Source: an uncultured PS1 clade bacterium (GTDB lineage: Bacteria > Pseudomonadota > Gammaproteobacteria > PS1 > Pseudothioglobaceae). Taken from it: a stretch of DNA of 47,809 nucleotides. The translations under genes were made by a program, and so were the position numbers. The DNA lies in contig CALKDH010000100.1 of NCBI GenBank assembly GCA_938086805.1, forward strand, positions 1 to 47,809. Reading direction: 5' to 3'. Every line of letters starts with the position of its first letter. The first letter of the stretch is position 1. Positions 20,486 to 37,583 of the stretch are shown one piece after another. The notes under the pieces are model-generated. The model had not been told where the DNA came from. It was given only the letters and a program-made list of their open reading frames with translations, and did not search any database.

Positions 20486-20499
20486 TTAACTATCCTTAT

Positions 20500-22083
20500 T
20501 TAAAGTGGCTTGCGACCAATGTTGTTTCTACTTAATTTAATATTGAATTTCTTCCGTATTTTTTGATCAATATCATCACTGATATGGCTTGGAAAATATT
20601 CAGATAAAAGTTCATTTTTTTTCTGGATTGCTTTTTCTAAAATAACAGGCTTACCCATATCAGCCCAATCATTTGGACTATCTCTATCGCTCAGTTCAGG
20701 GTAGATGTATTCACTTTGCATCACATCAATTGTTTGTTCTGAACCAAGATAATGAGCCTTGTCATTTAGACAAACATCTTTAATAGTTTCAAAGCAAAGA
20801 GACTCTTCGCTGTCATCACTAAAGCCTTTAGTCATTCTCATTGATGCTCCAAGTAAATCATTATCTAAAAGCAGACTTTCGGGGCAAGTTCCAAGGAGGC
20901 TTGCATACATGCCTGCAGATTCATAAACGATATTAGCTCCAGCGATTGCTGTTACGGCATGAGTTGAAGCTCTTTCAGATCCAGCTTGAAAGTCAGGAAA
21001 TTTTGAGTCAGTCATTCCAGCTGGTGTTCCAGTGGGTAGATTAAAATGATTTCCCATTTGAGCGCAAGCAGCAGATATTAAGCCTTGCTCTGGGGAGCCA
21101 CCACACATAGCACCAGTTCTCAGATCAGATACAAATGGCCATGTACCAAGAATAGCTGGAGCGCCAGGCTTAATAGCATTCACATAAACCAATCCACCTA
21201 GGCATTCAGCCCAAGCTTGAGAGACTACTCCAGGAAGTAAAGGTGGTGCAGTAGCTCCAGCCTGACCAGCTGAGAGCAATAAAATTGGCATACCACCCTC
21301 AACTCCAACACGAACACACTCTAACGATTCTTCCGCAAATTTCATTGGTGGCACTACGTGACAGTTACTCATACTCACAAAGGGTCTCTCTCTCCACTTC
21401 TCTTCACTACCAGCAATAATATGAAGCATTTCAAGTGCATCAGTTACATGTGAAGATTCTGTAAAGCTAACACCTGCATGTTTTTCAGTGCCCATTGCAA
21501 CACAATAAACTGAGTTTTGATCCATCTCTCTTGGGCTCTCGATATCTCTTAATACACATGTTCTTTGAAACATATGGATATGTTCACACTTATCAGCGAT
21601 CCTTGCCATATCATACAAATCTTGACTAACTGACTCTCTGTATTCGTTTTTTTCAGGATCGGCAATAAGAACTGCTGCGCCAGCAGTTGAAAAGTGGACT
21701 CTTGATCCACTAAGATCTAGATCGTGTTTTGGTGATTGACCAAATAGTGTTAGATTTCTTTGAGAGAGATTTATTGCTTTATCTACAATTTCTTTTGACA
21801 TTCGCAACCTTCCGTCATCACCAAGAGTTGCCCCAAAGGAAACACAGGTTTCTATACAATGAGGAGTCGCATCACCAAATCCAACCTCTTCAAGAATTCT
21901 ATAAATATTAGCTTCAATATCCAGAACCTGTTTATCACTAAGAGGCTTATATCTGCCTCCAATTTCTCCAGCATTTACTGGCTTTTCATCTTCTTTTAGT
22001 GGGGCATTTCTTAAAGCAATTCGAGCTTCTCTGCCACCTGATTTTCTTCTAGTCATGATCTTGGATTCAGTTTGAATATTCAC
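20500..22083 (-). CDS. Trimethylamine methyltransferase (MttB) superfamily protein, non-pyrrolysine
   Basis: RRKSGGREARIALRNAP N-terminus and CGGSPEQGLISAACAQMGNHFNLPTGTPAGMTDSKFPDFQAG typical of MttB/COG5598; ORF has no internal UAG. Confidence 0.87.
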   Translation of the reverse strand: MNIQTESKIMTRRKSGGREARIALRNAPLKEDEKPVNAGEIGGRYKPLSDKQVLDIEANIYRILEEVGFGDATPHCIETCVSFGATLGDDGRLRMSKEIVDKAINLSQRNLTLFGQSPKHDLDLSGSRVHFSTAGAAVLIADPEKNEYRESVSQDLYDMARIADKCEHIHMFQRTCVLRDIESPREMDQNSVYCVAMGTEKHAGVSFTESSHVTDALEMLHIIAGSEEKWRERPFVSMSNCHVVPPMKFAEESLECVRVGVEGGMPILLLSAGQAGATAPPLLPGVVSQAWAECLGGLVYVNAIKPGAPAILGTWPFVSDLRTGAMCGGSPEQGLISAACAQMGNHFNLPTGTPAGMTDSKFPDFQAGSERASTHAVTAIAGANIVYESAGMYASLLGTCPESLLLDNDLLGASMRMTKGFSDDSEESLCFETIKDVCLNDKAHYLGSEQTIDVMQSEYIYPELSDRDSPNDWADMGKPVILEKAIQKKNELLSEYFPSHISDDIDQKIRKKFNIKLSRNNIGRKPL

Positions 22084-22376: not shown

Positions 22377-23339
22377 ATGTTTAAAATCTATAAAAACACT
22401 GCAAAAGTTTTTCTAGCAGTGTCTGTTCTTTTTGGGGCAACAATGTTTGGCAGTTCTGCCGCAGTTGCGTCTGGAGAGAAATTTGTGTTAATTAGCCATG
22501 CACCAGATTCTGATTCGTGGTGGAATACAATTAAAAATGCAATAGGAATTGCTGGTGAGCAAATGGGTGTCGATGTAGATTATCGCAACCCAACTACAGG
22601 AGATCTTGCTGATATGGCTCGTATTGTTGAGCAAGCTGCTGCAAGTAATCCTGATGGCATTATCGTAACGATTGCCGATTACGATGTTCTTAAAGGTCCG
22701 ATTACTTCAGCAATCGCTAAAGGAATTCCAGTTGTTACAATTAACTCTGGTACACGTGATCAGTCAGAAGCACTTGGTGCTTTAGCCCATATTGGGCAGC
22801 CAGAGTATGATGCTGGTTTTGGTGCTGGTAAGAGAGCAAAAGCTGCTGGAGCAACAAAGTTTTTATGTGTTAATCACTTTTTTACCAACCCAGTTTCAGT
22901 TGATCGTTGCCAGGGATATGCAGATGCACTTGGTGTAGACTTAGGTGATCAAATGATCGATTCAGGTCAAGATCCAACAGAAATTAAGAATAAGGTTATG
23001 GCTCATCTAAGATCACATCCTGATACAGATGCTATTCTTACTTTAGGTCCTACTTCTGCTCATCCAACTCTTTCAGCTCTGGATGATATGGGACGTTCAG
23101 GTGATATGTACTTTGGAACTTTTGATCTATCAGGTGAAATTGCTGCTGCTGTGAAGTCAGGTGTAATTTCATTTGCAATTGATCAACAACCATACTTACA
23201 AGGTTACCTGCCAGTAGTTTTCTTGACTAACATGTCAAGATATGGTGTTTGGCCTTCTGGTGCAATTAACTCTGGACCTGGATTTATCACTAAGAGTAAC
23301 ATTAGCTTAGTTGAGAAATACGCAGGTGTTTATCGTTAA
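22377..23339 (+). CDS. Sugar ABC transporter substrate-binding protein (ribose/inositol type)
   Basis: Signal peptide; periplasmic-binding-protein-type I fold with AASNPDGIIVTIADYDVLKGPITSAIAKGIPVVTINSG. Confidence 0.92.
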   Translation: MFKIYKNTAKVFLAVSVLFGATMFGSSAAVASGEKFVLISHAPDSDSWWNTIKNAIGIAGEQMGVDVDYRNPTTGDLADMARIVEQAAASNPDGIIVTIADYDVLKGPITSAIAKGIPVVTINSGTRDQSEALGALAHIGQPEYDAGFGAGKRAKAAGATKFLCVNHFFTNPVSVDRCQGYADALGVDLGDQMIDSGQDPTEIKNKVMAHLRSHPDTDAILTLGPTSAHPTLSALDDMGRSGDMYFGTFDLSGEIAAAVKSGVISFAIDQQPYLQGYLPVVFLTNMSRYGVWPSGAINSGPGFITKSNISLVEKYAGVYR

Positions 23340-23357
23340 AAGTTAGTTGATCTCAAT

Positions 23358-23401
23358 AATGCTACTCACTTCAAATTAAACGAGTGAGTAGCATTTTTTT
23401 T
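23358..23401 (+). terminator. Intrinsic terminator/attenuator-like hairpin between SBP and permease genes
   Basis: AATGCTACTCACT-tcaaattaaacg-AGTGAGTAGCATT followed by a T-run. Confidence 0.75.
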
Positions 23402-23432
23402 AAATCTCTTTGAAACTTCAGTGGATTAAATC

Positions 23433-24539
23433 ATGTCAGATGATATAAAGAATAACTCAAATCTTCGTAGTAATTTTAGAACAGTTATGCTTAGGCCAGA
23501 TCTCGGAGCTATTGTTGGTGTTATTTTAGTTTTCCTTTTCTTTTTTTTAGTGGCTCGTGATACAGGAATGTTTTCACTAGAGGGTTCAATGAACTGGGGA
23601 ATAGTTTCCTCTCAATTTATCATCATTGCAGTTGGCGCCTGTCTGTTGATGATTGCTGGAGAATTTGATCTATCTGTTGGCTCGATGATCGGTTTTGCTG
23701 GAATAGTTATTGCTGTAACATCAGTCGTTTGGGGTTGGCCAGTATGGTTAAGCATAATTTCTGCATTTGCTATATCGATGGCTATAGGAGCATTGATAGG
23801 CTATATAACAATTAGTACAAATCTACCTTCATTTATTGTGAGCTTAGCCTTTCTTTATATCTTAAGAGGCTTAACTATTTTTATTGCAATTATAAGTACA
23901 AAAAAAACAATCATTGGTGGCGTAACTGAGGTAGCTCAGGACGATTGGTTGGCTCCAATTTTTGGTGGAGAGATTTTCACTGGAGTATTTCAATGGCTTG
24001 CTGAACAAGGCATCATACAAACATTTGTAGCAGGAACAAAAGCTGGGCAGCCGGTTGTTTCTGGAATACCAATGATGATGGTTTGGGCTTTAGGACTTAT
24101 TGTTTTTGCTCATTTTCTATTAACAAAAACTCGTTTTGGAAATTGGATTTATGCTTCTGGCGGTGATGCACAAGCAGCAAAACATATTGGAGTTCCCGTT
24201 AACAGAGTCAAGATATTAATGTTTGTGTTTACAGCTTTTTGTGCAACTGTCTTCGCTACTACACAGGTAATAGAATTCGGATCAGCCTCGGCAGATAGGG
24301 GTGTCCTTAAAGAGTTTGAGGCAATTATTTCAGTAGTTATAGGTGGAGCTTTGTTAACTGGAGGCTATGGATCAGTTATTGGAGCCGCACTTGGTGCTGT
24401 AATATTTGGAGTAGTTCAACAAGGATTATTCTTTATTGGTGTAGAAAGCTCATTATTTAGAGTATTTCTAGGTGTACTTCTTTTACTGGCAGTAATACTT
24501 AATACACATGTTCGTAAGTTAATTACGGGGGCAAAGTAA
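23433..24539 (+). CDS. Sugar ABC transporter permease (ribose/inositol type)
   Basis: Multiple TM segments; AGEFDLSVGSMIGFAG and GGDAQAAKHIGVPVNRVKI motifs of RbsC-type permeases. Confidence 0.92.
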   Translation: MSDDIKNNSNLRSNFRTVMLRPDLGAIVGVILVFLFFFLVARDTGMFSLEGSMNWGIVSSQFIIIAVGACLLMIAGEFDLSVGSMIGFAGIVIAVTSVVWGWPVWLSIISAFAISMAIGALIGYITISTNLPSFIVSLAFLYILRGLTIFIAIISTKKTIIGGVTEVAQDDWLAPIFGGEIFTGVFQWLAEQGIIQTFVAGTKAGQPVVSGIPMMMVWALGLIVFAHFLLTKTRFGNWIYASGGDAQAAKHIGVPVNRVKILMFVFTAFCATVFATTQVIEFGSASADRGVLKEFEAIISVVIGGALLTGGYGSVIGAALGAVIFGVVQQGLFFIGVESSLFRVFLGVLLLLAVILNTHVRKLITGAK

Positions 24540-25303
24540 TGAGTATTTCACCTCTAATGGAACTTAATGATATTCATAAAAGCTTTGGAAATGTTGATGC
24601 TCTAAAGGGAGTTTCTATTTCTATAAATGCAGGAGAATGTCATTGCTTACTCGGCGACAATGGAGCTGGTAAGTCAACATTTATTAAAATTATGTCGGGT
24701 GTTCATCAACCGACAAAAGGCCAGATTAATATCAATGGAAAGCCAATAGAAATAAACAATCCACGTGAAGCAATAGACGTTGGAATCGCAACAGTTTATC
24801 AAGATTTAGCATTAATTCCTTTGATGTCCGTCTCACGTAATTTTTGGCTTGGCAGAGAGTTAACAAAAAAAGTTGGACCTGTTACGCTCATGGATTTTGA
24901 GAAATGTGATTCAATTTTGATGTCTGAGATGGATAAGATTGGAATTAAATTAAGGGACCCAAGTCAATCCATTGGGACTTTGTCAGGTGGCGAAAGACAA
25001 ACTGTTGCAATTGCCCGTGCAGTATTTTTCGGAGCTAAAATTTTGATTCTGGATGAACCAACATCAGCTCTAGGAGTATATCAAACTTCAAACGTTTTAA
25101 AAACGATAGAAAGAGTCCGGGAAAAAGGTGTTGCTGTTGTATTTATATCTCATAACGTTTCTCATGCGCTAGCTGTTGGTGATAAATTTACAGTTTTATC
25201 CAGGGGTGAAACTCTTGGAACTGCAAAAGCTGGTGAGATTGATTTTCAAGAATTACAACTCATGATGTCTGGCAACAAAGAATTGTCTGAACTAAAAAAA
25301 TAG
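24539..25303 (+). CDS. Sugar ABC transporter ATP-binding protein (single NBD)
   Basis: Walker A GDNGAGKST, signature LSGGERQ, Walker B ILILDEPTSALG. Confidence 0.95.
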   Translation: MSISPLMELNDIHKSFGNVDALKGVSISINAGECHCLLGDNGAGKSTFIKIMSGVHQPTKGQININGKPIEINNPREAIDVGIATVYQDLALIPLMSVSRNFWLGRELTKKVGPVTLMDFEKCDSILMSEMDKIGIKLRDPSQSIGTLSGGERQTVAIARAVFFGAKILILDEPTSALGVYQTSNVLKTIERVREKGVAVVFISHNVSHALAVGDKFTVLSRGETLGTAKAGEIDFQELQLMMSGNKELSELKK

Positions 25304-25312
25304 GAATGCATC

Positions 25313-26296
25313 ATGAATATATGTTTAATCGGGGCAGGTAGAATTGGAATTGTTCATGCAATTGCAATTGCTAGTGAAAAAAATGCAATTCTTCATTCAG
25401 TAGTAGATGTTAATGAATCAGCTGCTGAGTCATTGGCAAAAGAATATAGTGCTAAAGTTCTAAATATTAATGAAGCTTTTAGTAATATAGATATTGATGC
25501 TTATATTATTGCAAGTAGTACAGCAACTCATGCTGATTTAATAGAAAAGTGTTCTGAAGTTGGAAAGCCTGTTTTTTGTGAAAAACCAATAGATCTTAGT
25601 CTTGAAAGAGCCGAATCTTGTGCAAAATTGGTAGAGCAGAGCGGTATTGTCTGCATGCTCGGATTTAATAGAAGATTTGATCCCAATATGGCAAGCTTAA
25701 AAAGTAAAGTAGATTCTAATTTAATTGGCTCTGTTCAATCATTAGTAATTACCTCTCACGATCCTGCGCCACCTCCAATAGATTATATTCAAAGTTCTGG
25801 TGGGTTATTTCATGACATGATGATTCATGATTTTGATATGGCCTGTTGGATTTTAGATGACACTCCAGATAGCATCTATGTTTCAGCGGCTGCCAATAAT
25901 GAAGATATTAAAAAGGCAGGCGATGTAGATACTGCAAGTGTCATAATGAATATGAAAAAAGGTGCAATAGTCACTATTCTTAATGGTCGCCAAGCTTCCT
26001 TTGGTTATGACCAAAGAATTGAGGCTTTTGGTGAAAAAGGTATGCTACAGGTTAAGAATGAGTTAGAAGATAAAGTGGTTCTTAGTAATGCTGATGGTAT
26101 TAATCAATCTAAAGCTAAGCATTTTTTTTTAGAGCGCTATGAAAAGGCATACCATAATGAGCTCCTTCATTTCATGGAATCCTATCATTTAGGTGTAAAG
26201 CCAAGTGTAGATATTTCTGATGGAGTTCTTGCATTAAGAATCGCTGAAGCAGCAAAAAGATCTCTTAAATCTGGCCTGCCAGAAAATTTACAATAA
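25313..26296 (+). CDS. iolG: Inositol 2-dehydrogenase-like, Gfo/Idh/MocA family
   Basis: NICLIGAGRIGIVHA; PVFCEKPIDLSLE; GFNRRFDPN; GGLFHDMMIHDFDMACWI. Confidence 0.87.
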   Translation: MNICLIGAGRIGIVHAIAIASEKNAILHSVVDVNESAAESLAKEYSAKVLNINEAFSNIDIDAYIIASSTATHADLIEKCSEVGKPVFCEKPIDLSLERAESCAKLVEQSGIVCMLGFNRRFDPNMASLKSKVDSNLIGSVQSLVITSHDPAPPPIDYIQSSGGLFHDMMIHDFDMACWILDDTPDSIYVSAAANNEDIKKAGDVDTASVIMNMKKGAIVTILNGRQASFGYDQRIEAFGEKGMLQVKNELEDKVVLSNADGINQSKAKHFFLERYEKAYHNELLHFMESYHLGVKPSVDISDGVLALRIAEAAKRSLKSGLPENLQ

Positions 26297-26304
26297 GCAA
26301 TTGA

Positions 26305-27126
26305 ATGAGTGCCTCTAATATTAATGAATTAAATAATTTGTTACAAGAAAGTTATCCTTTATTGAGCAAGAAAATGAAGTTGATTGCTTTTTATATTATT
26401 GATCAGCCACAAAACCTAGCTATAAATACGCTTGCAGTCATTGCTAGAGATATAGGTGTTTTTCCATCTACATTAGTTCGTTTTGCCAAGCACTTTGGTT
26501 TCAGTGGTTTTGCTGAAATACAAGCCTTATTCAAAGTAAGAATCTCAGAAAGTACAATTAACTACAAACAACGAATTACTGATGTAAAAAATATTACTGA
26601 AAGTGACACAGTTACAAACTCCTCTAATATCTTTTATGATATTACAAAGAGAAATGTTACTGCGACTCAGCTGCTTGCTGAAAACACCGATATCGACCTA
26701 ATTGAAGATTCAGTTATAGCATTATGTGAAGCTAGTGAAGTTGTATTATGCGGCACAAATAGAGCTCAACCAGTAGCTAATTATTTTTACTATATGTTGA
26801 ACAATCTTGGTATTAGATGCAGAATTACTAATGATTCTAATGAGCTTGAAAACTTATCAAATTGGCTTGATGAAAAAACAGTATTTATAGCTATAACTTA
26901 TAATCCATATAATGAGAATACTACTCAAGCAGTAAAAACTGCCAAGAAAGCGAACTCAAAGATAATTCTGTTAACTGATACTGAGCTAAATCCAATTGCA
27001 CATCTTGCGGATTTTTTATTTAGTATTCACGAAGCTGAAATTCATACATTTAGGTCCTTAGGGGCAACGATGTGTTTAGTTCAAGCAATATGTATTTCAA
27101 TTGGCTATCATCAACAAGGAAATTAA
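26305..27126 (+). CDS. RpiR/MurR family transcriptional regulator (HTH + SIS)
   Basis: N-terminal HTH IARDIGVFPSTLVRFAKHFGFSGFAEIQ; SIS-like domain EVVLCGTNRAQPVANYFYYML. Confidence 0.92.
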   Translation: MSASNINELNNLLQESYPLLSKKMKLIAFYIIDQPQNLAINTLAVIARDIGVFPSTLVRFAKHFGFSGFAEIQALFKVRISESTINYKQRITDVKNITESDTVTNSSNIFYDITKRNVTATQLLAENTDIDLIEDSVIALCEASEVVLCGTNRAQPVANYFYYMLNNLGIRCRITNDSNELENLSNWLDEKTVFIAITYNPYNENTTQAVKTAKKANSKIILLTDTELNPIAHLADFLFSIHEAEIHTFRSLGATMCLVQAICISIGYHQQGN

Positions 27127-27927
27127 ATGTCATTATTAAGTCGACCAAAGCATAGTAAAGATAGTTGTTATCAAAAAATTACACCACAATCTGCAAATTG
27201 GGATTTTGTGGGTTTTGAAGCTCATGATCTCAAAGAATATGAGCTATTAGATTGGTTGGATGAGTTCAATGAGTGTTGTCTAGTGATTTTATCTGGAATT
27301 GCGAATATAAGTGTTGATGGGCAAGAGTTTAAAAATGTTGGAGAGAGGATGAGTGTTTTTGATAATATGAATCCTCATGCTGTATATGCTCCAAACAACA
27401 GCAAAATACAAATTACCGCTCAAACTAAATTGGAATTAGCAATTGCGATAGCTCCAGGGTTTGGTAACTTTCCAGCAAGACATATTAAGCCAGATGAAAT
27501 GTCTAGCGAGATAAGAGGCGAAGGGAGCAACAAGAGGTTTATTTGTAATATACTCCCAGAGCAAGAAAAGGCTGATAGTCTTCTTGTTGTTGAGGTCAAG
27601 ACTCCTTCAGGTAATTGGTCTAGCTACCCTCCTCACAAGCATGATTCTGACAATATTCCGGTTGAAACCTATTTAGAAGAAACATACTATCATCGAGTTA
27701 ATCCGCCACAAGGTTTTGCTTTTCAGAGAGTTTATACAGATGATTTATCTATTGATGAGACGATGGCAGTAGAAGATAAGTGTGTTGTTCTTGTTCCAAA
27801 AGGATATCATCCAGTAGGAGTTCCTCATGGATATGATTCCTATTATTTAAATGTAATGGCTGGGCCAAAAAGGCAATGGATATTTAATAATGATCCTAAC
27901 CATGAGTGGATGCTAGAGCAAAAATGA
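27127..27927 (+). CDS. iolB: 5-deoxy-glucuronate isomerase
   Basis: NWSSYPPHKHDSDNIPVETYLEETYYHRVNPPQGFAFQRVYTDD; KGYHPVGVPHGYDSYYLNVMAGP. Confidence 0.95.
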   Translation: MSLLSRPKHSKDSCYQKITPQSANWDFVGFEAHDLKEYELLDWLDEFNECCLVILSGIANISVDGQEFKNVGERMSVFDNMNPHAVYAPNNSKIQITAQTKLELAIAIAPGFGNFPARHIKPDEMSSEIRGEGSNKRFICNILPEQEKADSLLVVEVKTPSGNWSSYPPHKHDSDNIPVETYLEETYYHRVNPPQGFAFQRVYTDDLSIDETMAVEDKCVVLVPKGYHPVGVPHGYDSYYLNVMAGPKRQWIFNNDPNHEWMLEQK

Positions 27928-29840
27928 AGTCAATTGATATTATTTGTTTAGGTAGGGCGGCTGTAGACTTTTATGGTCAACAGATTGGCTCTAGTCTAGA
28001 AAATATGGGTAGTTTTGCTAAATATTTGGGGGGGTCATCCGCAAATATCGCTTATGGCTGCTCTAAACTTGGTCTTAATTCGGCAATGCTCACTCGTGTT
28101 GGAAATGAACATATGGGCCGCTTTGTTCGTAACGAATTAGAAAGTGTGGGTGTAGATACGTCTCATGTAATTACTGATAAGGAGAGATTAACTGGCTTAG
28201 TTGTTCTAGGAATTCAGAATAAAGAAACATTTCCACTTATTTTTTACAGGAAAGATTGTGCAGATATGGCAATCAGTGAAAAAGATTTCTCTAAAGATTT
28301 TATCGCTAGTAGTAGGTCATTGCTTATAACTGGAACGCATTTTTCATCAGATAGTACTTATCGAACGAGTATGAAAGCAATTGAATATGCAAAAGCTTCT
28401 GATACACAAGTTATTGTTGATATTGATTATCGTCCTGTACTCTGGGGTTTAACAGAGCTAGGTGATGGAGAATCTCGATTTGTTGCAAGCGACGATGTTA
28501 GTCAACACTTGCAAACAATACTTCCATACTGTGATCTGATTGTTGGAACTGAAGAAGAGATTCATATCGCTGGTGGAAGTGAGGATACTATTACTGCACT
28601 ATTAAAGATTAGAGAGTTGACTTCCTCAATTATTGTTTTAAAACTGGGCCCATTAGGATGCACTGTTATTACAAATAAAATCCCAGAAAGTGCAGATGAT
28701 TTCAAAGTGATACAGGGTAAGCAAGTAGATATTCTAAATGTTCTAGGTGCTGGTGATGCATTTATGTCAGGCTTTCTTCGTGGTTACCTTCGAGGGGAAA
28801 GTCTTGAAATAAGTGCTAATTATGCAAATGCTTCTGGCGCATTAGTAGTATCTCGTCATGGTTGCGCACCAGCAATTCCTGGTGAAGAAGAGTTACTATA
28901 CTATTTAGAAAATGCCACCAGAATACCTAATCCAAGCACAGATTTAACATTAAATCATCTTCATAGAGTTAGCTTTAGAGGCAAAGAGAATCCTGAGGTT
29001 TTTGGTTTTGCTTTTGATCATCGTAAACAGCTATTTGAACTTGCAACAAAGTATGGGGTAGATTCCAATAAAATCAATAAGATAAAAAACTTATTCATTA
29101 AGTCGACTCAAAAAGCTATTGAAAAATCCAATATCCCAGAAAAAAATATTGGCGTATTGATTGATGATACTTATGGAGAGGATGCGTTAAATTCAATTGC
29201 TGAAAAGTCATGGTGGATCGGCAGACCAGTAGAGCTACCAAGTTCAAGGCCTCTCAAGTTTGAGGGAGTGCAATCTATTGGTTCAAAGATACAATCTTGG
29301 CCACTAAATCATACTGTTAAGTGTTTATGTTTCTATCATCCAGATGATTCTGACGATCTAAAAAACAAGCAAGAACAAAAAATCAAAGAACTCTATTTTG
29401 CTTGTCTTCAAAGTGGCCACAAACTATTACTTGAAGTTATTCCACCTTTAGAGTTTGAGAATGATGAGGACACTATTCCAAAAATACTCCAAAGATTCTA
29501 TGACTTAGAAATAAAGCCTGACTGGTGGAAACTTCCTTCAATGAAAGACAATTCATGGACGCAAGTGAGTAGTATCATAAATACGAATGATCCACACTGT
29601 CAAGGTATATTATTATTAGGACTTTCTGCATCAATTGATACTGTAATAAGTTCATTTGCTGTGGCAGCAAAATATAGTATTTGTAGAGGTTTTACGGTAG
29701 GTAGGACAATTTTTTATGAGCCAGCTGAACTATGGATGCAAGAAAAAATCAATGATGATGAGCTAGTTGATTATGTATCAAAAAATTATACTGATTTGAT
29801 CAAAGCTTGGCAAAAATACAGGGAGGTGTTCCAGCAATGA
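27924..29840 (+). CDS. iolC: 5-dehydro-2-deoxygluconokinase fused to a C-terminal DUF2090 domain
   Basis: PfkB kinase VLGAGDAFMSGFLRGYLRGE; C-terminal FGFAFDHRKQLFELA... DUF2090-like region; start trimmed to ATGA overlap with iolB. Confidence 0.93.
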   Translation: MKSIDIICLGRAAVDFYGQQIGSSLENMGSFAKYLGGSSANIAYGCSKLGLNSAMLTRVGNEHMGRFVRNELESVGVDTSHVITDKERLTGLVVLGIQNKETFPLIFYRKDCADMAISEKDFSKDFIASSRSLLITGTHFSSDSTYRTSMKAIEYAKASDTQVIVDIDYRPVLWGLTELGDGESRFVASDDVSQHLQTILPYCDLIVGTEEEIHIAGGSEDTITALLKIRELTSSIIVLKLGPLGCTVITNKIPESADDFKVIQGKQVDILNVLGAGDAFMSGFLRGYLRGESLEISANYANASGALVVSRHGCAPAIPGEEELLYYLENATRIPNPSTDLTLNHLHRVSFRGKENPEVFGFAFDHRKQLFELATKYGVDSNKINKIKNLFIKSTQKAIEKSNIPEKNIGVLIDDTYGEDALNSIAEKSWWIGRPVELPSSRPLKFEGVQSIGSKIQSWPLNHTVKCLCFYHPDDSDDLKNKQEQKIKELYFACLQSGHKLLLEVIPPLEFENDEDTIPKILQRFYDLEIKPDWWKLPSMKDNSWTQVSSIINTNDPHCQGILLLGLSASIDTVISSFAVAAKYSICRGFTVGRTIFYEPAELWMQEKINDDELVDYVSKNYTDLIKAWQKYREVFQQ

Positions 29841-31693
29841 AAACCATAAGACTAACAATGACTCAAGCAATAGTTAGATATTTAGCATCCCAATTTATTG
29901 AGACTGATGAAGGTATTCAGCAAATATTTGCTGGTGTTTTTGCAATTTTTGGTCATGGTAATGTTGCTGGTATTGGACAAGCCTTGACTGAATCTCAGGA
30001 TAAACTACCAACCTATCGGGGTCACAGTGAGCAAGGTATGGTCCACTCAGCAATCGCATATGCAAAAGCCAATAATCGACAGAGAATGATGGCATGCACT
30101 AGCTCAATTGGGCCTGGAGCAACTAATATGGTAACAGCTGCTGCATTAGCTCATGTAAATCGATTGCCTGTTTTGTTACTTCCCGGTGATTACTTTGCAA
30201 GTCGAACACCAGACCCAGTTCTTCAACAATTAGAGGATTTTTCTGACCCAACAGTGAGTGTAAATGACTGCTTTAAACCTGTAAGTAGATATTTTGATCG
30301 AATCATGAGACCAGAACAAATTATTAATAGCTTGCCTGTTGCAATTCAGACACTGTTGGATCCTGAAAATTGCGGTCCAGTTACAATTTCATTGCCTCAA
30401 GATGTTCAGGCTGAAGCCTTTGACTATCCAGAAGAATTTTTCAAAAAACGAATACACACTATTCGAAAAATAAAAATTGATGATGATGAGTTAGCTCAAG
30501 TAATTGAAATTTTAAAAAATTCAAAAAAACCTTTGATAATTGCTGGTGGCGGTGTTCATTATGCTAATGCATGTAATTCACTTAAAGAGTTTTCAAAAAA
30601 ATATAAAATCCCTGTTGCAGAAACCTCTGCTGGAAAAGGAGCACTTGCTTGGAATCATCCTGGCTATGTTGGGGCTATTGGGGTTACCGGATCTAATGCA
30701 GCTAACAACCTAGCAAGACAGGCTGATACAGTTTTGGCCATTGGGACAAGATTAAATGATTTTATTTCAGGGTCAAGAGCCTTATTTTCTGATAAAAAAC
30801 TCATTCAATTAAATGTAGCAAGATTTGATGCTATTAAACATGATGCATACTCTTTATGGGGCGATGCAAATTTAGGAATAGACAAACTTGATGAACATCT
30901 CGGTGACTGGAAGGCATCACCAAATTGGTTTCAAGAGTCAGAAACAGAGGCTTCAAAATGGAATGACTATTACGAAGATATAACCTCTTTAAATAATCCA
31001 TCTAATAAGGAAGAAGATTTTCCTACAGATGCTCAGGTGCTTGGCGAGGTTAAGAGAAATGGAAAGGCAAGTGATATTGTAGTTTGTGCAGCTGGAAGTT
31101 TACCTGGTGAGCTTCATAAGCTATGGAGAACAGAGCAAATAGGTGGTTATCATTCTGAATATGGTTTTTCATGCATGGGGTATGAGATCGCAGGAGGGCT
31201 TGGTGTCAAAATGGCTCAGCCAGAAAGAGAGGTCATAGTCCTTGTTGGAGATGGGTCATACCTGATGCTCAATTCAGAGTTAGCAACCAGCGTAATGTTA
31301 GGTCAAAAAATAATAGCTGTAGTTCTCGATAACAGAGGCTTTTCATGTATTAATCGTCTTCAAAATGCAACAGGTAATCGCTCATTTAATAATTTGCTTA
31401 AAGACTGCAAAAGTTCAGATGATGGATACCCAGAAATTAATTTTGCAATGCACGCAAAATCTCTTGGTGCTAACTCAGAACATGTTGAGGATATAGATGA
31501 ATTGGCTTTAGCTCTTAAAAGGGCAAGGGCATCATCAAAGTCTTATGTTATTAGTATTGTAACTGACTCTCATAAGATAAGCCCTGAGGGAGGTTGCTGG
31601 TGGGAGGTTGCTGTGCCTGAGGTTTCCTCAAATGAAAAGGGTGATGAAGTTCTTAGTGCATATAAGAAATCAAAGACTAATCAGCCTTATTAA
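29837..31693 (+). CDS. iolD: 3D-(3,5/4)-trihydroxycyclohexane-1,2-dione acylhydrolase (ThDP-dependent)
   Basis: RLTMTQAIVRYLASQFIE, GHGNVAGIGQAL, ThDP site VGDGSYLMLNSELATS; start trimmed to 29837. Confidence 0.96.
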   Translation: MKTIRLTMTQAIVRYLASQFIETDEGIQQIFAGVFAIFGHGNVAGIGQALTESQDKLPTYRGHSEQGMVHSAIAYAKANNRQRMMACTSSIGPGATNMVTAAALAHVNRLPVLLLPGDYFASRTPDPVLQQLEDFSDPTVSVNDCFKPVSRYFDRIMRPEQIINSLPVAIQTLLDPENCGPVTISLPQDVQAEAFDYPEEFFKKRIHTIRKIKIDDDELAQVIEILKNSKKPLIIAGGGVHYANACNSLKEFSKKYKIPVAETSAGKGALAWNHPGYVGAIGVTGSNAANNLARQADTVLAIGTRLNDFISGSRALFSDKKLIQLNVARFDAIKHDAYSLWGDANLGIDKLDEHLGDWKASPNWFQESETEASKWNDYYEDITSLNNPSNKEEDFPTDAQVLGEVKRNGKASDIVVCAAGSLPGELHKLWRTEQIGGYHSEYGFSCMGYEIAGGLGVKMAQPEREVIVLVGDGSYLMLNSELATSVMLGQKIIAVVLDNRGFSCINRLQNATGNRSFNNLLKDCKSSDDGYPEINFAMHAKSLGANSEHVEDIDELALALKRARASSKSYVISIVTDSHKISPEGGCWWEVAVPEVSSNEKGDEVLSAYKKSKTNQPY

Positions 31694-31695
31694 CA

Positions 31696-32865
31696 ATGAA
31701 AGTAAAATCCCATCCATCAAACCATCAAGTTTATTTTAATGAATCTGATATTAATTATGATGAGTTGTCTAGCATCTGCTCTCAGAAGACTTTAAAAGAA
31801 CACTATCCACTTTCGGATTCAATTTCAAATAATGTTGTCATTTATGATGCGAAAGACTTTGTCTCATTTATTGGTAATACTGAACAAGAAATAAAATTGA
31901 AAACTGAAATGCATTATGTTTTAGAAAATGGACCAGGTGTATTTGTAATTCGAAATCTTTATAGTGAAGATGTTATAGATCAAAGTAATGTTATTTTTGC
32001 AAAGATTGTTAAAAAAGAAAGTGGTTCTAGTAATGATCACTTTGCCTCGGGAACTAATACTAGAATTTGGAATAGTTTTCAAAAGGTTGCCTTAGAAAAC
32101 GCAGATGCCTTTATCAATTATTATTCTAATGATTTAGTGAAGATAATTGCTGAATCTTGGTGTGGCCCTAATTCTCAAATGACAGCTCAGGTCAATATTG
32201 TAAGACCAGGGGGTGAAATGCAGAAGCCTCATCGGGATTATCATTTAGGCTTTCAAGAAAATGAAGTCGTTGAAAAATTTCCAATCTCAGTGCATCGACT
32301 TTCAAACTATCTTACTTTGCAGGGTGGCATAGCTCATACTGATATGCCTCTAGATAGTGGGCCTACAATTGTCTTGCCCTATTCACAACAATATGACTTA
32401 GGTTACTTGACATGGAGGGATTTAAGGTTTGGTGAATTTTTTAATCAATACTCAGTTCAAAATCCAATGTCTAAAGGCGATGGAATTTTTTTTAATCCTG
32501 CTATATTTCATGCAGCTGGATCAAACACAACAACTAATTTTCATAGAATAGGTAATCTTCTTCAGATCTCATCAGCCTTTGGAAAGACAATGGAGCATGT
32601 AGACTATTTTAAAATTATTACTCATATATATCCTTATCTTTTAAATCATAAAGCCCTCTCAAAGAGACTCATTGAAAATGTTCTTATTTGTGCTACAGAT
32701 GGATATGCTTTTCCGACAAATTTAGACTCTGATAAAAATTCTGATTCTAAACTTCAGGGTATGAGTATGTTTGAACTTACAAAGCAATCACTACTGGATT
32801 CAGTGAGTCCAAAAAAATTTAATTCTAAGCTTTTGGAGCACCAGCAAGTTAGGCTTGCTGGATAA
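31696..32865 (+). CDS. Phytanoyl-CoA dioxygenase (PhyH)-like Fe(II)/2-oxoglutarate oxygenase
   Basis: HxD motif in KPHRDYHLGFQ, distal His in FFNPAIFHAAGSNTTTNFHRIGNLLQ; length about 390 aa. Confidence 0.78.
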   Translation: MKVKSHPSNHQVYFNESDINYDELSSICSQKTLKEHYPLSDSISNNVVIYDAKDFVSFIGNTEQEIKLKTEMHYVLENGPGVFVIRNLYSEDVIDQSNVIFAKIVKKESGSSNDHFASGTNTRIWNSFQKVALENADAFINYYSNDLVKIIAESWCGPNSQMTAQVNIVRPGGEMQKPHRDYHLGFQENEVVEKFPISVHRLSNYLTLQGGIAHTDMPLDSGPTIVLPYSQQYDLGYLTWRDLRFGEFFNQYSVQNPMSKGDGIFFNPAIFHAAGSNTTTNFHRIGNLLQISSAFGKTMEHVDYFKIITHIYPYLLNHKALSKRLIENVLICATDGYAFPTNLDSDKNSDSKLQGMSMFELTKQSLLDSVSPKKFNSKLLEHQQVRLAG

Positions 32866-32892: not shown

Positions 32893-33795
32893 ATGAGTGT
32901 GAAAATTGGTGTTAGTCCGATATCATGGACTAATGATGATATGCCAGAACTCGGTCGTGACACTACAGTGGAGCAATGCTTGCAAGAGGGAAGACAGGCG
33001 GGATATCGTGGATTTGAATTAGGGGGTAAATGGCCTCGGGAAGTTTCAGTTCTTGAGCCTTTATTCAGGAAACATGATATGGATGTAGTTTCGAGTTGGT
33101 TTTGTGGAGGCTTGCTAAAAGACACTATTGAAGGTGAAATAGAAAGAATTACTCCACATATGCAGCTTTTAAAAGATCTTGGGACTGATGTCATCGTATA
33201 TTGTGAAATGGATTCCTGTGTTCATGGAGATATTGATTCGCCACTTTCTAAACGACCAATTCTGAACGATAACCAATGGATGCAATGGACTGAAAAATTA
33301 GATCAGTTGGCAAAATATACATTGTCTCATGGAATGAAACTTGCCTATCACCATCATATGGGCACAGTGGTGCAAATTGAAGAAGAGGTAGATAAATTAA
33401 TGGCAATGACCAGTAATGATTTAGGTTTGGTGTTTGATACGGGGCATTTTATTTATGCAGGGGCTGATCCATTGAGTGTTTATAAAAAACATAGTGATAG
33501 AGTTCTTCATATTCATTGTAAAGATGTTAGGGCAGATATATTAAATGATGCACTTGAGTCAGATTCAAGTTTTTTGAATGCCGTTCTAGATGGAGTTTAT
33601 ACAGTACCAGGGGATGGAATGTTTGATTTTCCTGAGCTCTTTAAAATGGTTAGCGAAAATGAATTTAAAGGATGGGTTGTGGTTGAGGCAGAGCAAGATC
33701 CTGCCAAAGCTCACCCATTAACTTATGTAACTATGGGCTATAAAAATATTGAAAGTTACTGCAATAAATTTGGAATTGAAATAGAGGAAAAATAA
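32893..33795 (+). CDS. iolE: Myo-inosose-2 dehydratase
   Basis: KIGVSPISWTNDDMPELG; GYRGFELGGKWP; YHHHMGTVVQ; DTGHFIYAGADP; HIHCKDVR. Confidence 0.96.
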   Translation: MSVKIGVSPISWTNDDMPELGRDTTVEQCLQEGRQAGYRGFELGGKWPREVSVLEPLFRKHDMDVVSSWFCGGLLKDTIEGEIERITPHMQLLKDLGTDVIVYCEMDSCVHGDIDSPLSKRPILNDNQWMQWTEKLDQLAKYTLSHGMKLAYHHHMGTVVQIEEEVDKLMAMTSNDLGLVFDTGHFIYAGADPLSVYKKHSDRVLHIHCKDVRADILNDALESDSSFLNAVLDGVYTVPGDGMFDFPELFKMVSENEFKGWVVVEAEQDPAKAHPLTYVTMGYKNIESYCNKFGIEIEEK

Positions 33796-34922
33796 TGAAA
33801 ACAATTGGTGTAGGAGTTATAGGGACAGCTTTTATGGGTAAGGCGCATTCAATTGCATATGCTGCTGCAGGAAGTGTTTTTGGTGATGGATTAAGGCCAC
33901 AACTTGAAATGATCTGCGACTACAATCCTGATAGGGCTGAGGTTATGAGAAAAGAGATGGGCTTCTCAAGATGTACTAGCTCATGGATGGAGTTGGTTAA
34001 TGATCCCAAAGTAGAGCTTATTTCAGTCTGTGTTCCAAATTCATTGCATAAAGAAATTTCTGTGGAAGCTTTAAAGCTTGGCAAACATGTATGGTGCGAA
34101 AAACCAATGTCAACCAATTTGTCTGACTCCGAAGCAATGCTTGCAGCAGCTCAAAAAGCAACAAGCTCTCAAACAATTTTAGGTTATAACTACACTCAAA
34201 ATCCAGCCGTTCAAAGCGCAAAAAAACTTATTGATGAAGGGGTGATCGGAAGAGTTATTGGTTTTTATGGTGTTTATGATGTGGATAACGAAGCAGATCC
34301 AGACAGGCCTCATTCGTGGCGAATGAGTCGTGAGGCATCGGGAACTGGTTCAAATGCTGATGTTATGTGTCATTTAGTTAGTATGGCTCATTATATGACA
34401 GGAAGCGAAATCACTCGATTGGTTGGAGATTATGATACTGTTCATAAGGAGCGATCAGATCCAAAAAACCCAGAGAAAATGCTAGTCGTTGATAATGATG
34501 ATGTTTGCACAGCCATGGCTCACTTTGAGAGTGGAATTAAGGGAACTCTGCGAGTAAGCAGGGTGGCTTGGGGTAGAAAGTGCGGTTTAAGCTGGGAGAT
34601 TCATGGATCACAAGGCATGATATGCCATGATCAAGAGCGTCTAAATGAGATTAAGCTCTACACTCGAAGTAAAGATCCAAGGCAAGAGGGCTTTAAAACT
34701 ATTTTGAGTGGCCCAGCTCAACCACCTTATGATGCATTTTTACCAAATGCTGGTCATAGTCTGGGTTATATTGATGTTAAAGTTTGTGAATTAAAACATC
34801 TTCTTGACGCTATTGAAACAGGTCAATCAGTTTGGCCTAATTTTTCTGATGGATTAAAAATTGAAAGAGTAATGGATGCTATCGATCGATCTGCCCTTTC
34901 AGGTCAGTGGATTGATGTCTGA
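33795..34922 (+). CDS. Gfo/Idh/MocA family oxidoreductase (second in operon)
   Basis: GVIGTAFMGKAHSIAYAAAG; KHVWCEKPMSTNLSDSE; GYNYTQNPA; HSWRMSREASGTGSNADVMCHLV. Confidence 0.9.
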   Translation: MKTIGVGVIGTAFMGKAHSIAYAAAGSVFGDGLRPQLEMICDYNPDRAEVMRKEMGFSRCTSSWMELVNDPKVELISVCVPNSLHKEISVEALKLGKHVWCEKPMSTNLSDSEAMLAAAQKATSSQTILGYNYTQNPAVQSAKKLIDEGVIGRVIGFYGVYDVDNEADPDRPHSWRMSREASGTGSNADVMCHLVSMAHYMTGSEITRLVGDYDTVHKERSDPKNPEKMLVVDNDDVCTAMAHFESGIKGTLRVSRVAWGRKCGLSWEIHGSQGMICHDQERLNEIKLYTRSKDPRQEGFKTILSGPAQPPYDAFLPNAGHSLGYIDVKVCELKHLLDAIETGQSVWPNFSDGLKIERVMDAIDRSALSGQWIDV

Positions 34923-35910
34923 AAAAATACAAAATATCATTTATAAAAAAACCAGAAAATGGAGTGCACTTGTTGTTGGAAGAGCTGGTCTTGATCTATA
35001 TCCACAACCATCAGGTTCAAAGACGAAGTTGGCAAAATCATTTGCAAGTGATGTTGGAGGATCTGGAGGCAATATAGCTATTGCAATGAAAAAGGCCGGA
35101 GGAAACATTGCACTCATTTCTGCACTTTCAGATGACCCAGTTGGTTTTTTTGTTAAGAATAGGCTTATTGAAGAAGGTATAGAAATTAATTTAATGCAGA
35201 CAACTCATGGTAACGAAAGAACAAGTCTAGCAATTGCTGAAGAGCGTCCAACTGATTGCGAAGTTGTAATTTATCGTAATAATCCAGCAGACCTTCAAAT
35301 TGTTTTTAATAAAAATATAGAGTTGGCAATTCTAAATAGTAGCAATCTAGTGGTTACTGGAACAAGTCTTATTGATGATCAGTCCAGAGAACAAGTGTTG
35401 AAAATGATGGATTTTGCAAAAAAAAATGAATGCAAAGTTTGGCTAGATTTAGATTACAGGCACTGGAATTGGCCTGATAAGAATACTACCCGGTCAGTAT
35501 ACCAAAAGGCAGAAAAGTTAGCACATGTAATAGTTGGAAATGAGGAAGAGTTTAATATTCTAAATAATGAGTTAGCCAATCAAATTAATCAATGTATCTC
35601 AAATAATCAAATAATGATTTTAAAGAAAGGAAAAAATGGATGCACCTTATTTTCTGGTGATTGTTATTTAACTTCAGGCATCTATAAACTTAAGGTTTTG
35701 AAGCCATATGGGTCAGGAGATGCCTTCCTAGGAAATTTAATAATGAATTATATGACTCATGGAGATTGGAAAAAGGCAACCGAGGCTGGCAGTGCTGCAG
35801 CGGCGATTGTCGTCTCCAAGCCTGGTTGTGCAAGTGCCATGCCATCAAATAAAGAAATAAAGTTATTACAAGATAGTGTATCGATTGAACCAAAAACAGA
35901 GTGGAGTTAA
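34915..35910 (+). CDS. PfkB-family carbohydrate kinase, IolC-like (second copy, no DUF2090)
   Basis: VVGRAGLDLYPQPSG; KPYGSGDAFLGNLIMNYMTHGDWKKATEAGSAAAAIVVSKPGCASAMP; start trimmed to 34915 overlapping the previous stop. Confidence 0.86.
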   Translation: MSEKIQNIIYKKTRKWSALVVGRAGLDLYPQPSGSKTKLAKSFASDVGGSGGNIAIAMKKAGGNIALISALSDDPVGFFVKNRLIEEGIEINLMQTTHGNERTSLAIAEERPTDCEVVIYRNNPADLQIVFNKNIELAILNSSNLVVTGTSLIDDQSREQVLKMMDFAKKNECKVWLDLDYRHWNWPDKNTTRSVYQKAEKLAHVIVGNEEEFNILNNELANQINQCISNNQIMILKKGKNGCTLFSGDCYLTSGIYKLKVLKPYGSGDAFLGNLIMNYMTHGDWKKATEAGSAAAAIVVSKPGCASAMPSNKEIKLLQDSVSIEPKTEWS

Positions 35911-35913
35911 AAA

Positions 35914-36753
35914 ATGCATATTCCTCAATTTGAGAATAATAATAAGCCTATCGTAGATTGTAACAGTGAGATAGTTCCTCTATGCTACTTCAATATAATT
36001 AAACTTTCTGCTGGAGAAGAGTTTAGCTATCAACTTAGCGGATATGAAACTTGTATCGTTCCTGCTACTGGAACCATTGATGTTGAAGTTGAGGGCCAAA
36101 CTTTTAAGGATGTTGGCAAGAGAAGCCATATTTGGGAAAGTGATCCTGAGGGAGTTTACATTCCAGTTAATATAAAAGTCAGATTGATATGTCATCATGG
36201 AAAGGCTGAAGTTTTTGTCTCTGGTGGAAAGCATAATGAAACATATGAGGCATTTGTGATTAGGCAAAATGATATTGATAAGGTTCAGTATGGTTCTGAC
36301 GATACAAAGACTCACAGAAAAATTAAACATATCTTAGGAAAAAATCCAGCTGGCAAAGTTGGAAAGTTATTGGTAAGTGAACTGTTTACTGTTGGTGAAG
36401 GTGGGTGGTCTGGATTTCCCCCTCACAAGCATGAGGCTGACATGCTTCCAGATGAGAGTAGACATAATGAAGTCTACAATTTTAGATTCAATCCATCAAA
36501 TGGCTTTGGTGCTCAGTTTTTAACGCCGGATGGTGAAGATTTTGGCCCTGTTTACCACGTGCGGGATGGATCAACTTTTATTTTTGATAAGGGCTACCAT
36601 CCCTGCGTTGCAGCCCCTGGCTTTGAGATGTATTACTTTACCATTTTGGCAGGTGAGAGCCAAAGGCCACTGCATATGAACTATCAAAAAGAGTATGCAT
36701 ATCAACTAAAAACTATTCCAGGTATGCAAGATATGCTTAATAAATTTAAATAA
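35914..36753 (+). CDS. 5-deoxy-glucuronate isomerase family protein (second iolB copy)
   Basis: GGWSGFPPHKHEADMLPDESRHNEVYNFRFNPSNGFGAQFLTPDGEDFG; DKGYHPCVAAPGFEMYYFTILAG. Confidence 0.9.
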   Translation: MHIPQFENNNKPIVDCNSEIVPLCYFNIIKLSAGEEFSYQLSGYETCIVPATGTIDVEVEGQTFKDVGKRSHIWESDPEGVYIPVNIKVRLICHHGKAEVFVSGGKHNETYEAFVIRQNDIDKVQYGSDDTKTHRKIKHILGKNPAGKVGKLLVSELFTVGEGGWSGFPPHKHEADMLPDESRHNEVYNFRFNPSNGFGAQFLTPDGEDFGPVYHVRDGSTFIFDKGYHPCVAAPGFEMYYFTILAGESQRPLHMNYQKEYAYQLKTIPGMQDMLNKFK

Positions 36754-37583
36754 TGTTGGCAAATTTAAAGGATATTTTATTGCCAGCAAAAGAAGAAGGT
36801 TATGCTGTAGCATGCTTCAATGTTTTTGGCTTCGAGGACTCAAGAGCTGTCATTGATGCTGCTGAGTCAAGAAATGCCTCAGTAATTCTTTCAATAAATC
36901 TTGATATGCGCCAATTCATGACTATGGATCAAATTATTGGCATGTTAAAACCTATGGCTGAAAGCGCTATGGTTCCAGTCTGTATTCATCTTGACCACAC
37001 TTATGAAGTTGATGTTGTAAAGCAAGCAGTAGATGCAGGATTTAATTCCGTAATGTTTGATGGGTCACAAATGTCCATAGATGAGAATATTACCTATATA
37101 AAGGATGTTGTTTCTTATGCGCACCAAAAAGGAGTATCCGTTGAAGCTGAAGTTGGATCAGTTCCTTATGCGTCTGGTAGAGATCATATTAAGTCTGAAT
37201 TAACAGAATTGTCTGAAGCTTTAGCAATGGAAAAAGAGGGTAAGCCTGATGCGTTAGCAATTTCAATTGGTAATGTTCATCGACTAGAGTCAGGCTCTGT
37301 AGAAATCAATATTGATCGTTTTAATGAGCTTGAAAAAGAGCTAAGCATTCCACTGGTAATTCATGGCACAAGTGGCATCAAGGAACAAGATATTGAAATG
37401 TTGTCTAAGCGCCACATTACAAAATTTAATGTTGGTACGGTCCTAAGAAAAAGTTTTGGTGACTCATTGCGATCTACATTAGAGTCTGACCCTGATCTAT
37501 TTGATAGAATTACAATAATGAAAAAAGTGATACCTGATTTGAAAGATACTGCCACAAAGGTTATTAGACTTCTTGGGCAATAA
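36753..37583 (+). CDS. Class II fructose-bisphosphate aldolase family (IolJ/GatY/KbaY type)
   Basis: AVACFNVFGFEDSRAVIDAAE; VPVCIHLDHTYEVDVVKQAVDAGFNSVMFDGS; VEAEVGSV; LVIHGTSGI; KFNVGTVLR. Confidence 0.9.
   Translation: MLANLKDILLPAKEEGYAVACFNVFGFEDSRAVIDAAESRNASVILSINLDMRQFMTMDQIIGMLKPMAESAMVPVCIHLDHTYEVDVVKQAVDAGFNSVMFDGSQMSIDENITYIKDVVSYAHQKGVSVEAEVGSVPYASGRDHIKSELTELSEALAMEKEGKPDALAISIGNVHRLESGSVEINIDRFNELEKELSIPLVIHGTSGIKEQDIEMLSKRHITKFNVGTVLRKSFGDSLRSTLESDPDLFDRITIMKKVIPDLKDTATKVIRLLGQ

Follow-up and report, generated by a model that had tools for sequence, protein, structure and literature searches.

Inositol catabolism of the Bacillus type runs through IolG, IolE, IolD, IolB, IolC and IolJ, and the textbook pathway contains no oxygenase. 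Of the inositol modifications found in nature, methylation is the most frequent, and plants contain pinitol, ononitol and quebrachitol as abundant solutes; algae have further modified cyclitols. The kanamycin 2-oxoglutarate dioxygenase KanJ acts together with KanK on a cyclitol-containing molecule, as a PhyH-type oxygenase with a dehydrogenase partner. Catabolism of the rhizopine 3-O-methyl-scyllo-inosamine requires mocDEF (PMC10107442) and, according to a 1998 study as quoted in PMC6637203, a working myo-inositol pathway. FJS and human PHYHD1, two members of the PhyH superfamily, carry out the 2-oxoglutarate (2OG)-dependent demethylation of 2′-O-methyl nucleosides, with release of formaldehyde (PMC12709175). 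Among open-access papers (most subscription papers lie outside this coverage), we found no aerobic enzyme other than rhizopine MocDEF that returns modified inositols to the pathway, no description of the oxygenase family considered here, and no PhyH oxygenase presented as a regular accessory of inositol catabolism.

The window, by which we mean the whole stretch of 47,809 nucleotides analysed, contains both an inositol operon and a PhyH-type oxygenase gene. An intact open reading frame of 389 aa with an ATG start (31696–32865, + strand) encodes a predicted PhyH-type Fe(II)/2OG oxygenase. It lies, as the first-pass annotation had proposed, between iolD (29840–31693, +; 3D-(3,5/4)-trihydroxycyclohexane-1,2-dione hydrolase; TIGR04377, 933 bits against a cut-off of 715) and iolE (32893–33795, +; myo-inosose-2 dehydratase; TIGR04379, 402 bits against 290). 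The spacing given there also proved exact: the iolD stop codon TAA occupies 31691–31693 and the oxygenase ATG begins at 31696, leaving a gap of 2 nt. At the other end, 27 nt (with ttggagaaaataa) separate the oxygenase stop codon from the iolE ATG at 32893. Upstream, all on the + strand, are iolC (27933–29840; bifunctional 5-dehydro-2-deoxygluconokinase/aldolase, PfkB plus DUF2090; NF047869, 836.8 bits against 600), iolB (27127–27927; 5-deoxy-glucuronate isomerase; TIGR04378, 345.6 against 205), an open reading frame in an IolR-like position that is kept in the genus (26305–27126; read from its sequence as an RpiR-type regulator, with no NCBIfam match), and iolG (25313–26296; inositol 2-dehydrogenase; TIGR04380, 389 against 355). 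IolB, C, D, E and G therefore all exceed their NCBIfam equivalog cut-offs and are transcribed in the same direction, and the oxygenase is a member of an inositol catabolic (iol) operon. It is also the single copy of its subfamily in its own genome (1.13 Mb in 126 contigs, 70% complete).

The operon is preceded by an ABC importer (22377–25303, +) consisting of a substrate-binding protein (22377–23339), a permease (23433–24539) and an ATPase (24539–25303). The nearest solved chain to the substrate-binding protein is 4ru1, a CUT2-family monosaccharide-binding protein (E 3e-37); PDB sequence matches of this protein, and of the SDR partner described below, gave no functional identification. Downstream of iolE follow a second Gfo/Idh/MocA dehydrogenase (33795–34922, +), levoglucosan-dehydrogenase-like and under the NCBIfam cut-off of that family, and a second, divergent set of genes (34876–37583, +) for an IolC-like kinase (34876–35910), an IolB-like isomerase (35914–36753) and an IolJ-like class II aldolase (36753–37583). 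The IolC-like and IolB-like proteins of this set are 27% and 31% identical to those of the first, and both fall under their NCBIfam cut-offs (266.9 bits against 300 and 155.9 against 205, respectively). Four other loci (L072, L074, L114, L124) and, by annotation, probably a fifth (L139, Marinovum) have this set together with the PhyH gene, so that it may serve a different cyclitol or represent an alternative lower pathway. Divergent from the importer, on the − strand (18068–22083), lie two genes, one MttB-like (trimethylamine methyltransferase family) and one of the DMGDH/GcvT type; L022 has the pair too, and in more distant relatives it was not observed next to the operon.

The oxygenase matches Pfam PF05721 (PhyH) over residues 81–282 with an E value of 9.3e-23 (82 bits against a gathering cut-off of 22); no NCBIfam model covers its family. 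The HxD motif and distal histidine pointed out in the first-pass annotation are kept: H179-R180-D181 and H272, the predicted metal ligands, are invariant in 53 of 53 aligned homologues that are 38–90% identical to the window protein, and the same holds for R284, the predicted 2OG-binding residue, so that the third metal ligand and a candidate arginine are both in place. R284 stands 12 residues after H272, inside the 10–13 spacing of candidate 2OG-binding arginines, and aligns with an arginine of TlxJ; shifted by one residue, it falls near what we take to be the 2OG arginine of human PHYH. Invariance among the 53 homologues extends to D114, H115, N121, R123, N126, K130, T163, Q165, N167, Q209, H214, Q255, N287, Q290, S292, D344 and D346. 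The AlphaFold model, computed from an alignment of genome loci only, with plasmid-derived rows left out, has a mean pLDDT of 92 and a pTM of 0.91 and adopts the double-stranded beta-helix fold of 2OG dioxygenases. All of its 50 best PDB matches are Fe/2OG dioxygenases. Assignment to the PhyH-type Fe(II)/2OG dioxygenases is well supported by sequence and model; the matches are 12–22% identical, and none is near enough to indicate a substrate.

Two other readings of this protein were considered and rejected. A true phytanoyl-CoA hydroxylase does not fit the gene context, and kinship to PHYH is not close (phmmer against 2a1x gave a weak match of 35 residues, E 0.055). A phage origin was discarded because we found neither a viral relative nor a PHROG match. 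PhyH-domain proteins are numerous in genomes of the Thioglobus type: four of them (G000, G003, G006 and G017; 1.1–1.7 Mb) encode 7–9 each, a number per base far above that of the larger genomes checked.

Within the genus, an uninterrupted oxygenase is found in 10 of the 28 other genomes searched, at 63–91% identity and always between iolD and iolE. These loci include the SUP05 cluster and Candidatus Thioglobus (NCBI ranks: Pseudothioglobaceae). The same gene order and an open frame in ten further genomes indicate that the reading frame is not a product of chance. Full-length IolD at 78% identity or more is present in exactly the 11 genomes, our own included, that have an intact oxygenase; one other genome (G024) has only part of IolD, at the end of a contig. 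A further locus (L032, G018:C10, 3069–6657) has no iolD between iolC and iolE, and its oxygenase is divided between two reading frames; this broken copy reflects either gene decay or an assembly error. Two other gammaproteobacteria in the genus sample carry IolD at 49–58% identity and gave no oxygenase match, so that the gene is fixed in the Thioglobus-type operon and not in inositol catabolism generally.

Co-occurrence with IolD was then followed in a phylum sample of 318 other Pseudomonadota genomes, each at least 90% complete. IolD is present in 70 of the 318 and the oxygenase subfamily in 16, which belong to 12 genera; all 16 have IolD (Fisher p 7e-12, shared ancestry ignored). As a control, we took the 88 genomes of this sample that carry other PhyH proteins without the subfamily: IolD occurs in 25 of them (28%), and the difference from 16/16 has a p of 4e-8, again with shared ancestry ignored. 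Among 369 other Gammaproteobacteria, IolD accompanies the subfamily in five of six genomes (p 2e-7, shared ancestry ignored), and in the sixth the gene is flanked by iolB and a dehydrogenase gene, on a short contig that also carries iolE. The dependence of the subfamily on the iol pathway is family-wide. It holds even where the gene lies far from iol genes, as a peripheral feeder would predict. Conversely, 54 of the 70 IolD genomes of the phylum sample lack the subfamily, so the pathway can run in its absence; a peripheral funnel would be expected to show this pattern. Because the oxygenase is found almost only in genomes able to break down inositol, it probably turns a modified inositol into a form that the pathway can use.

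A scan of GTDB species genomes returned at least 573 confirmed relatives. The best 80 of these include Thioglobus, Erwinia, Pseudomonas, Leucothrix, Psychromonas, Zobellella, Enterovibrio and Commensalibacter as well as Streptomyces, Mycobacterium, Kribbella, Janibacter and deltaproteobacterial MAGs, while plasmid records add relatives in Pantoea, Rhizobium, Sinorhizobium, Caballeronia, Ruegeria, Paracoccus, Shinella and Tsukamurella. One plasmid record, CP090106.1 (L019), labelled S. meliloti pSymB, measures 3.7 Mb and includes bluB and a gene for acyl-homoserine-lactone synthase; it may in fact be the chromosome. The neighbourhood survey that the first-pass annotation had called for shows that linkage to iol genes recurs far outside the genus, the oxygenase lying beside iolB, C, D or E repeatedly in several gammaproteobacterial groups, Alphaproteobacteria, Actinomycetota and deltaproteobacterial MAGs. 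Such arrangements include iolG-B-C-D-PhyH (L113, L115), iolD-E-PfkB-IolB-IolJ-PhyH (L114), iolC-D-E-PhyH-iolB (L130), ABC-PhyH-iolB (L125, L126, L128) and iolD-E-Gfo-Gfo-PfkB-IolB-IolJ-PhyH (L074); iol genes and PhyH also stand together in Marinovum and Tsukamurella. In a second recurring context, the oxygenase is accompanied by a divergent LacI-type regulator and an SDR (NF004847/PRK06198), often with an IolG-like dehydrogenase. Core iol genes (B, C, D or E) lie within 10 kb of the oxygenase in 39 of 80 genome-contig loci among the matches listed, in 4 of 6 loci of the gammaproteobacterial sample and in 6 of 16 of the phylum sample. In the tree, loci with and without iol linkage are intermingled, and the linkage state changes at least 20 times. 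Five loci (L015, L103, L138, L141, L121) have genes for SSADH, an HpcH/HpaI-type aldolase and a hydroxyacid dehydrogenase near the PhyH gene, along with Gfo and ABC genes; these neighbours may form a side route for an acid derived from a cyclitol.

We propose that this PhyH subfamily feeds a modified inositol into the IolG-E-D-B-C pathway, and for the whole chain, O-demethylation included, we put the probability at roughly 0.4. Its parts differ in strength: the substrate is probably an inositol derivative and not a pathway intermediate, while O-demethylation as the reaction is a tentative choice. The enzyme would bind 2OG through R284 and Fe(II) through H179, D181 and H272, form a ferryl species and hydroxylate one C–H of the cyclitol, yielding succinate and CO2. 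With an O-methyl-inositol, the likeliest substrate class, the hydroxylated O-CH3 would give a hemiacetal that breaks down to free inositol and formaldehyde, and the inositol released would then be a substrate for IolG or a sister Gfo or SDR dehydrogenase. We favour this chemistry because the PhyH relatives FJS and PHYHD1 demethylate 2′-O-methyl ribose, so that removal of methyl groups from secondary ring ethers of small polyols does occur in this superfamily. The first-pass annotation had suggested that the enzyme opens a modified cyclitol, such as a pinitol- or ononitol-type methyl-inositol. The general idea is supported: of the refuting conditions given there, a lack of iol linkage elsewhere and a missing third ligand or 2OG-binding arginine were both examined and did not hold. 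O-demethylation of these particular compounds is plausible, with a precedent in the PhyH superfamily (PMC12709175); the present results would fit hydroxylation of a deoxy-cyclitol, deamination of an amino-inositol and ring oxidation or epimerisation as well. The many homologues that are not near core iol genes count against our proposal, and the need for an SDR of the PRK06198 family, a common partner of the oxygenase, is not obvious in a demethylation.

Nor do genes for handling C1 units or formaldehyde regularly accompany the oxygenase: they were found near it in only 2 of 130 loci (L117 and L135). In L117 (5860–10410), a glutathione-dependent formaldehyde dehydrogenase (FrmA) and an S-formylglutathione hydrolase (FrmB), both above their NCBIfam equivalog cut-offs, are divergent from Gfo-PhyH; the sister locus L116 gave no FrmA or FrmB match, and as support for formaldehyde release the L117 pair is weak and suggestive. 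In L135 (Peteryoungia), FolD-PurU stands beside the oxygenase, next to a MocDEF-type cluster. A cluster of MocD(EF), LacI, TIM-barrel, ABC and Gfo genes occurs with no annotated PhyH nearby in Rhizobium sp. SL42, R. rosettiformans and Pararhizobium, and includes PurU-FolD in both Rhizobium strains. We therefore withdrew the Peteryoungia FolD-PurU genes as independent evidence and rejected them as proof of C1 release, since they belong to a separate conserved MocDEF cluster. The rhizobial cluster itself, with a MocD-like desaturase, LacI, TIM-barrel, sugar ABC and Gfo genes, is conserved in L147, L149, L151 and L152, several of which add a MocE ferredoxin, a MocF-type reductase, a PanB-like protein, IolG and PurU-FolD; it looks like a complete module for the demethylation of methyl-inositol or rhizopine with its own C1 outlet.

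The scarcity of formaldehyde genes fits another reaction, namely hydroxylation of a deoxy- or C-methyl-cyclitol (quercitol and viburnitol types, algal cyclohexanetetrol, laminitol) at a ring or methyl carbon, to give an inositol that IolG or the SDR could oxidise. 2OG oxygenases most often hydroxylate unactivated carbons, such cyclitols are found in plants and algae, and the frequent SDR or Gfo partner would fit. We nevertheless consider this route unlikely, since we found no precedent for it in inositol catabolism and its substrates are less widespread than O-methyl-inositols. The SDR or Gfo partner does not decide the matter; it fits hydroxylation, deamination of an amino-inositol (see below) and ring oxidation or epimerisation alike. 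In the last of these, the ferryl species would abstract a ring C–H and either produce a ketone directly or, in the manner of SnoN or CarC, invert a centre, so that plain isomers such as chiro-, scyllo- or muco-inositol would reach 2-keto-myo-inositol. This would account for the iol dependence as well as the dehydrogenase, and SnoN-type epimerases are among the remote PDB relatives; SnoN (E 0.08) is, however, no closer than other PhyH enzymes, and organisms normally use NAD-dependent dehydrogenases and isomerases for such conversions, so we give this option little credence. We see just as little chance that the enzyme acts on a pathway intermediate or a damaged by-product (for example a diketo or deoxy compound), or that it has an unrelated role and entered the operon by chance. 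In the genus it is flanked by iolD and iolE, the genes of two enzymes that act on pathway intermediates, and this speaks for the former. Yet most IolD genomes do without the gene, and in many genomes it stands apart from the iol cluster with a LacI regulator and an SDR of its own; both facts point to a peripheral substrate, and the perfect co-occurrence with IolD in the phylum sample rejects mere chance placement.

Oxidative deamination of an amino-inositol such as scyllo-inosamine is a further candidate, in which the C–NH2 carbon would be hydroxylated to give an inosose and ammonia, with the SDR or Gfo protein as reductase. KanJ and KanK, an oxygenase of the PhyH type with a reductase partner, offer a model in the action of KanJ on kanamycin B, and the Peteryoungia gene adjoins a MocDEF-type cluster. 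A transcriptomic lead comes from Ensifer adhaerens OV14, in which nine genes are down-regulated at every time point with roots (PMC6637203, Table 1). Among them are OV14_RS14055, called a phytanoyl-CoA dioxygenase gene, and genes for IolG, IolC, a Gfo/Idh/MocA protein, a rhizopine-binding protein and sugar ABC components; the PhyH gene is left uncommented in that study. Its reported identities are 86% to S. meliloti and 78% to the A. tumefaciens complex (PMC6637203). In our data, the subfamily members of S. meliloti and A. tumefaciens share 76% identity, and five genomes of family f203, rhizobial by their sequence matches and picked as carriers of the subfamily, encode one to three PhyH genes each, one of which belongs to it. 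The fitting identities and the small number of PhyH genes per genome make it likely that OV14_RS14055 is a member. It nonetheless counts as a candidate, and inositol-responsive regulation explains the Ensifer transcriptome equally well. Given also that the marine Thioglobus, Streptomyces and Pseudomonas carriers reach far beyond rhizopine ecology, deamination appears quite improbable to us.

Feeding of a modified inositol into the pathway, the reading that we prefer, gives a gene annotated only as 'phytanoyl-CoA dioxygenase' a candidate role: travelling with IolD, it would mark an entry point for modified inositols in a family with at least 573 relatives among GTDB species genomes, in genera including Sinorhizobium, Pseudomonas, Pantoea and Streptomyces, which can be worked with in the laboratory. 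A misleading annotation is thereby corrected, and the fate of cyclitols becomes directly testable.

Compared with the described systems, the catalytic class and the inositol pathway are both already known; their regular pairing is the part for which the open-access papers covered gave no description. With the PhyH family (phytanoyl-CoA dioxygenase, TlxJ, SptF, EasH), the oxygenase shares the fold, the HxD...H triad, the distal arginine and PF05721. It differs in being at most 22% identical to the top structural matches, in having helical extensions at both termini and a length of about 390 aa, in its gene context (iol, LacI-SDR) and in extra invariant motifs (DHF..G.N.R.WN, HRD.HLGF, TLQ and Y.FP..LD.D). 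FJS and PHYHD1 resemble it in superfamily and in 2OG chemistry on a small polyhydroxylated molecule, and, should our proposal be right, in a reaction that turns a ring O-CH3 into OH and formaldehyde; their substrate is a nucleoside, a link to inositol is not mentioned in PMC12709175, and PDB sequence matches of the oxygenase up to E 10 included no PHYHD1 chain. The likeness to KanJ is limited by the setting of that enzyme in secondary metabolism and its action on an amino-sugar carbon. The operon holds the Bacillus-type pathway, with G, E, D, B and C at equivalog level, and adds to it the oxygenase and the second divergent IolB/IolC/IolJ set. MocDEF is comparable in that an oxygenase step on a modified inositol ahead of the iol pathway has been proposed for it, and in its LacI, ABC and Gfo neighbours; MocD, however, carries the annotation of a fatty-acid-desaturase-type protein and has a ferredoxin and a reductase of its own, whereas the oxygenase described here is of the PhyH/2OG type. 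A widespread 2OG oxygenase family that opens O-methylated (or otherwise modified) inositols, as a one-gene counterpart of the three-gene MocDEF, is a possibility that we put forward with reserve, and it would, on the same tentative footing, span Pseudomonadota, Actinomycetota and deltaproteobacterial MAGs among soil, plant-associated and marine bacteria.
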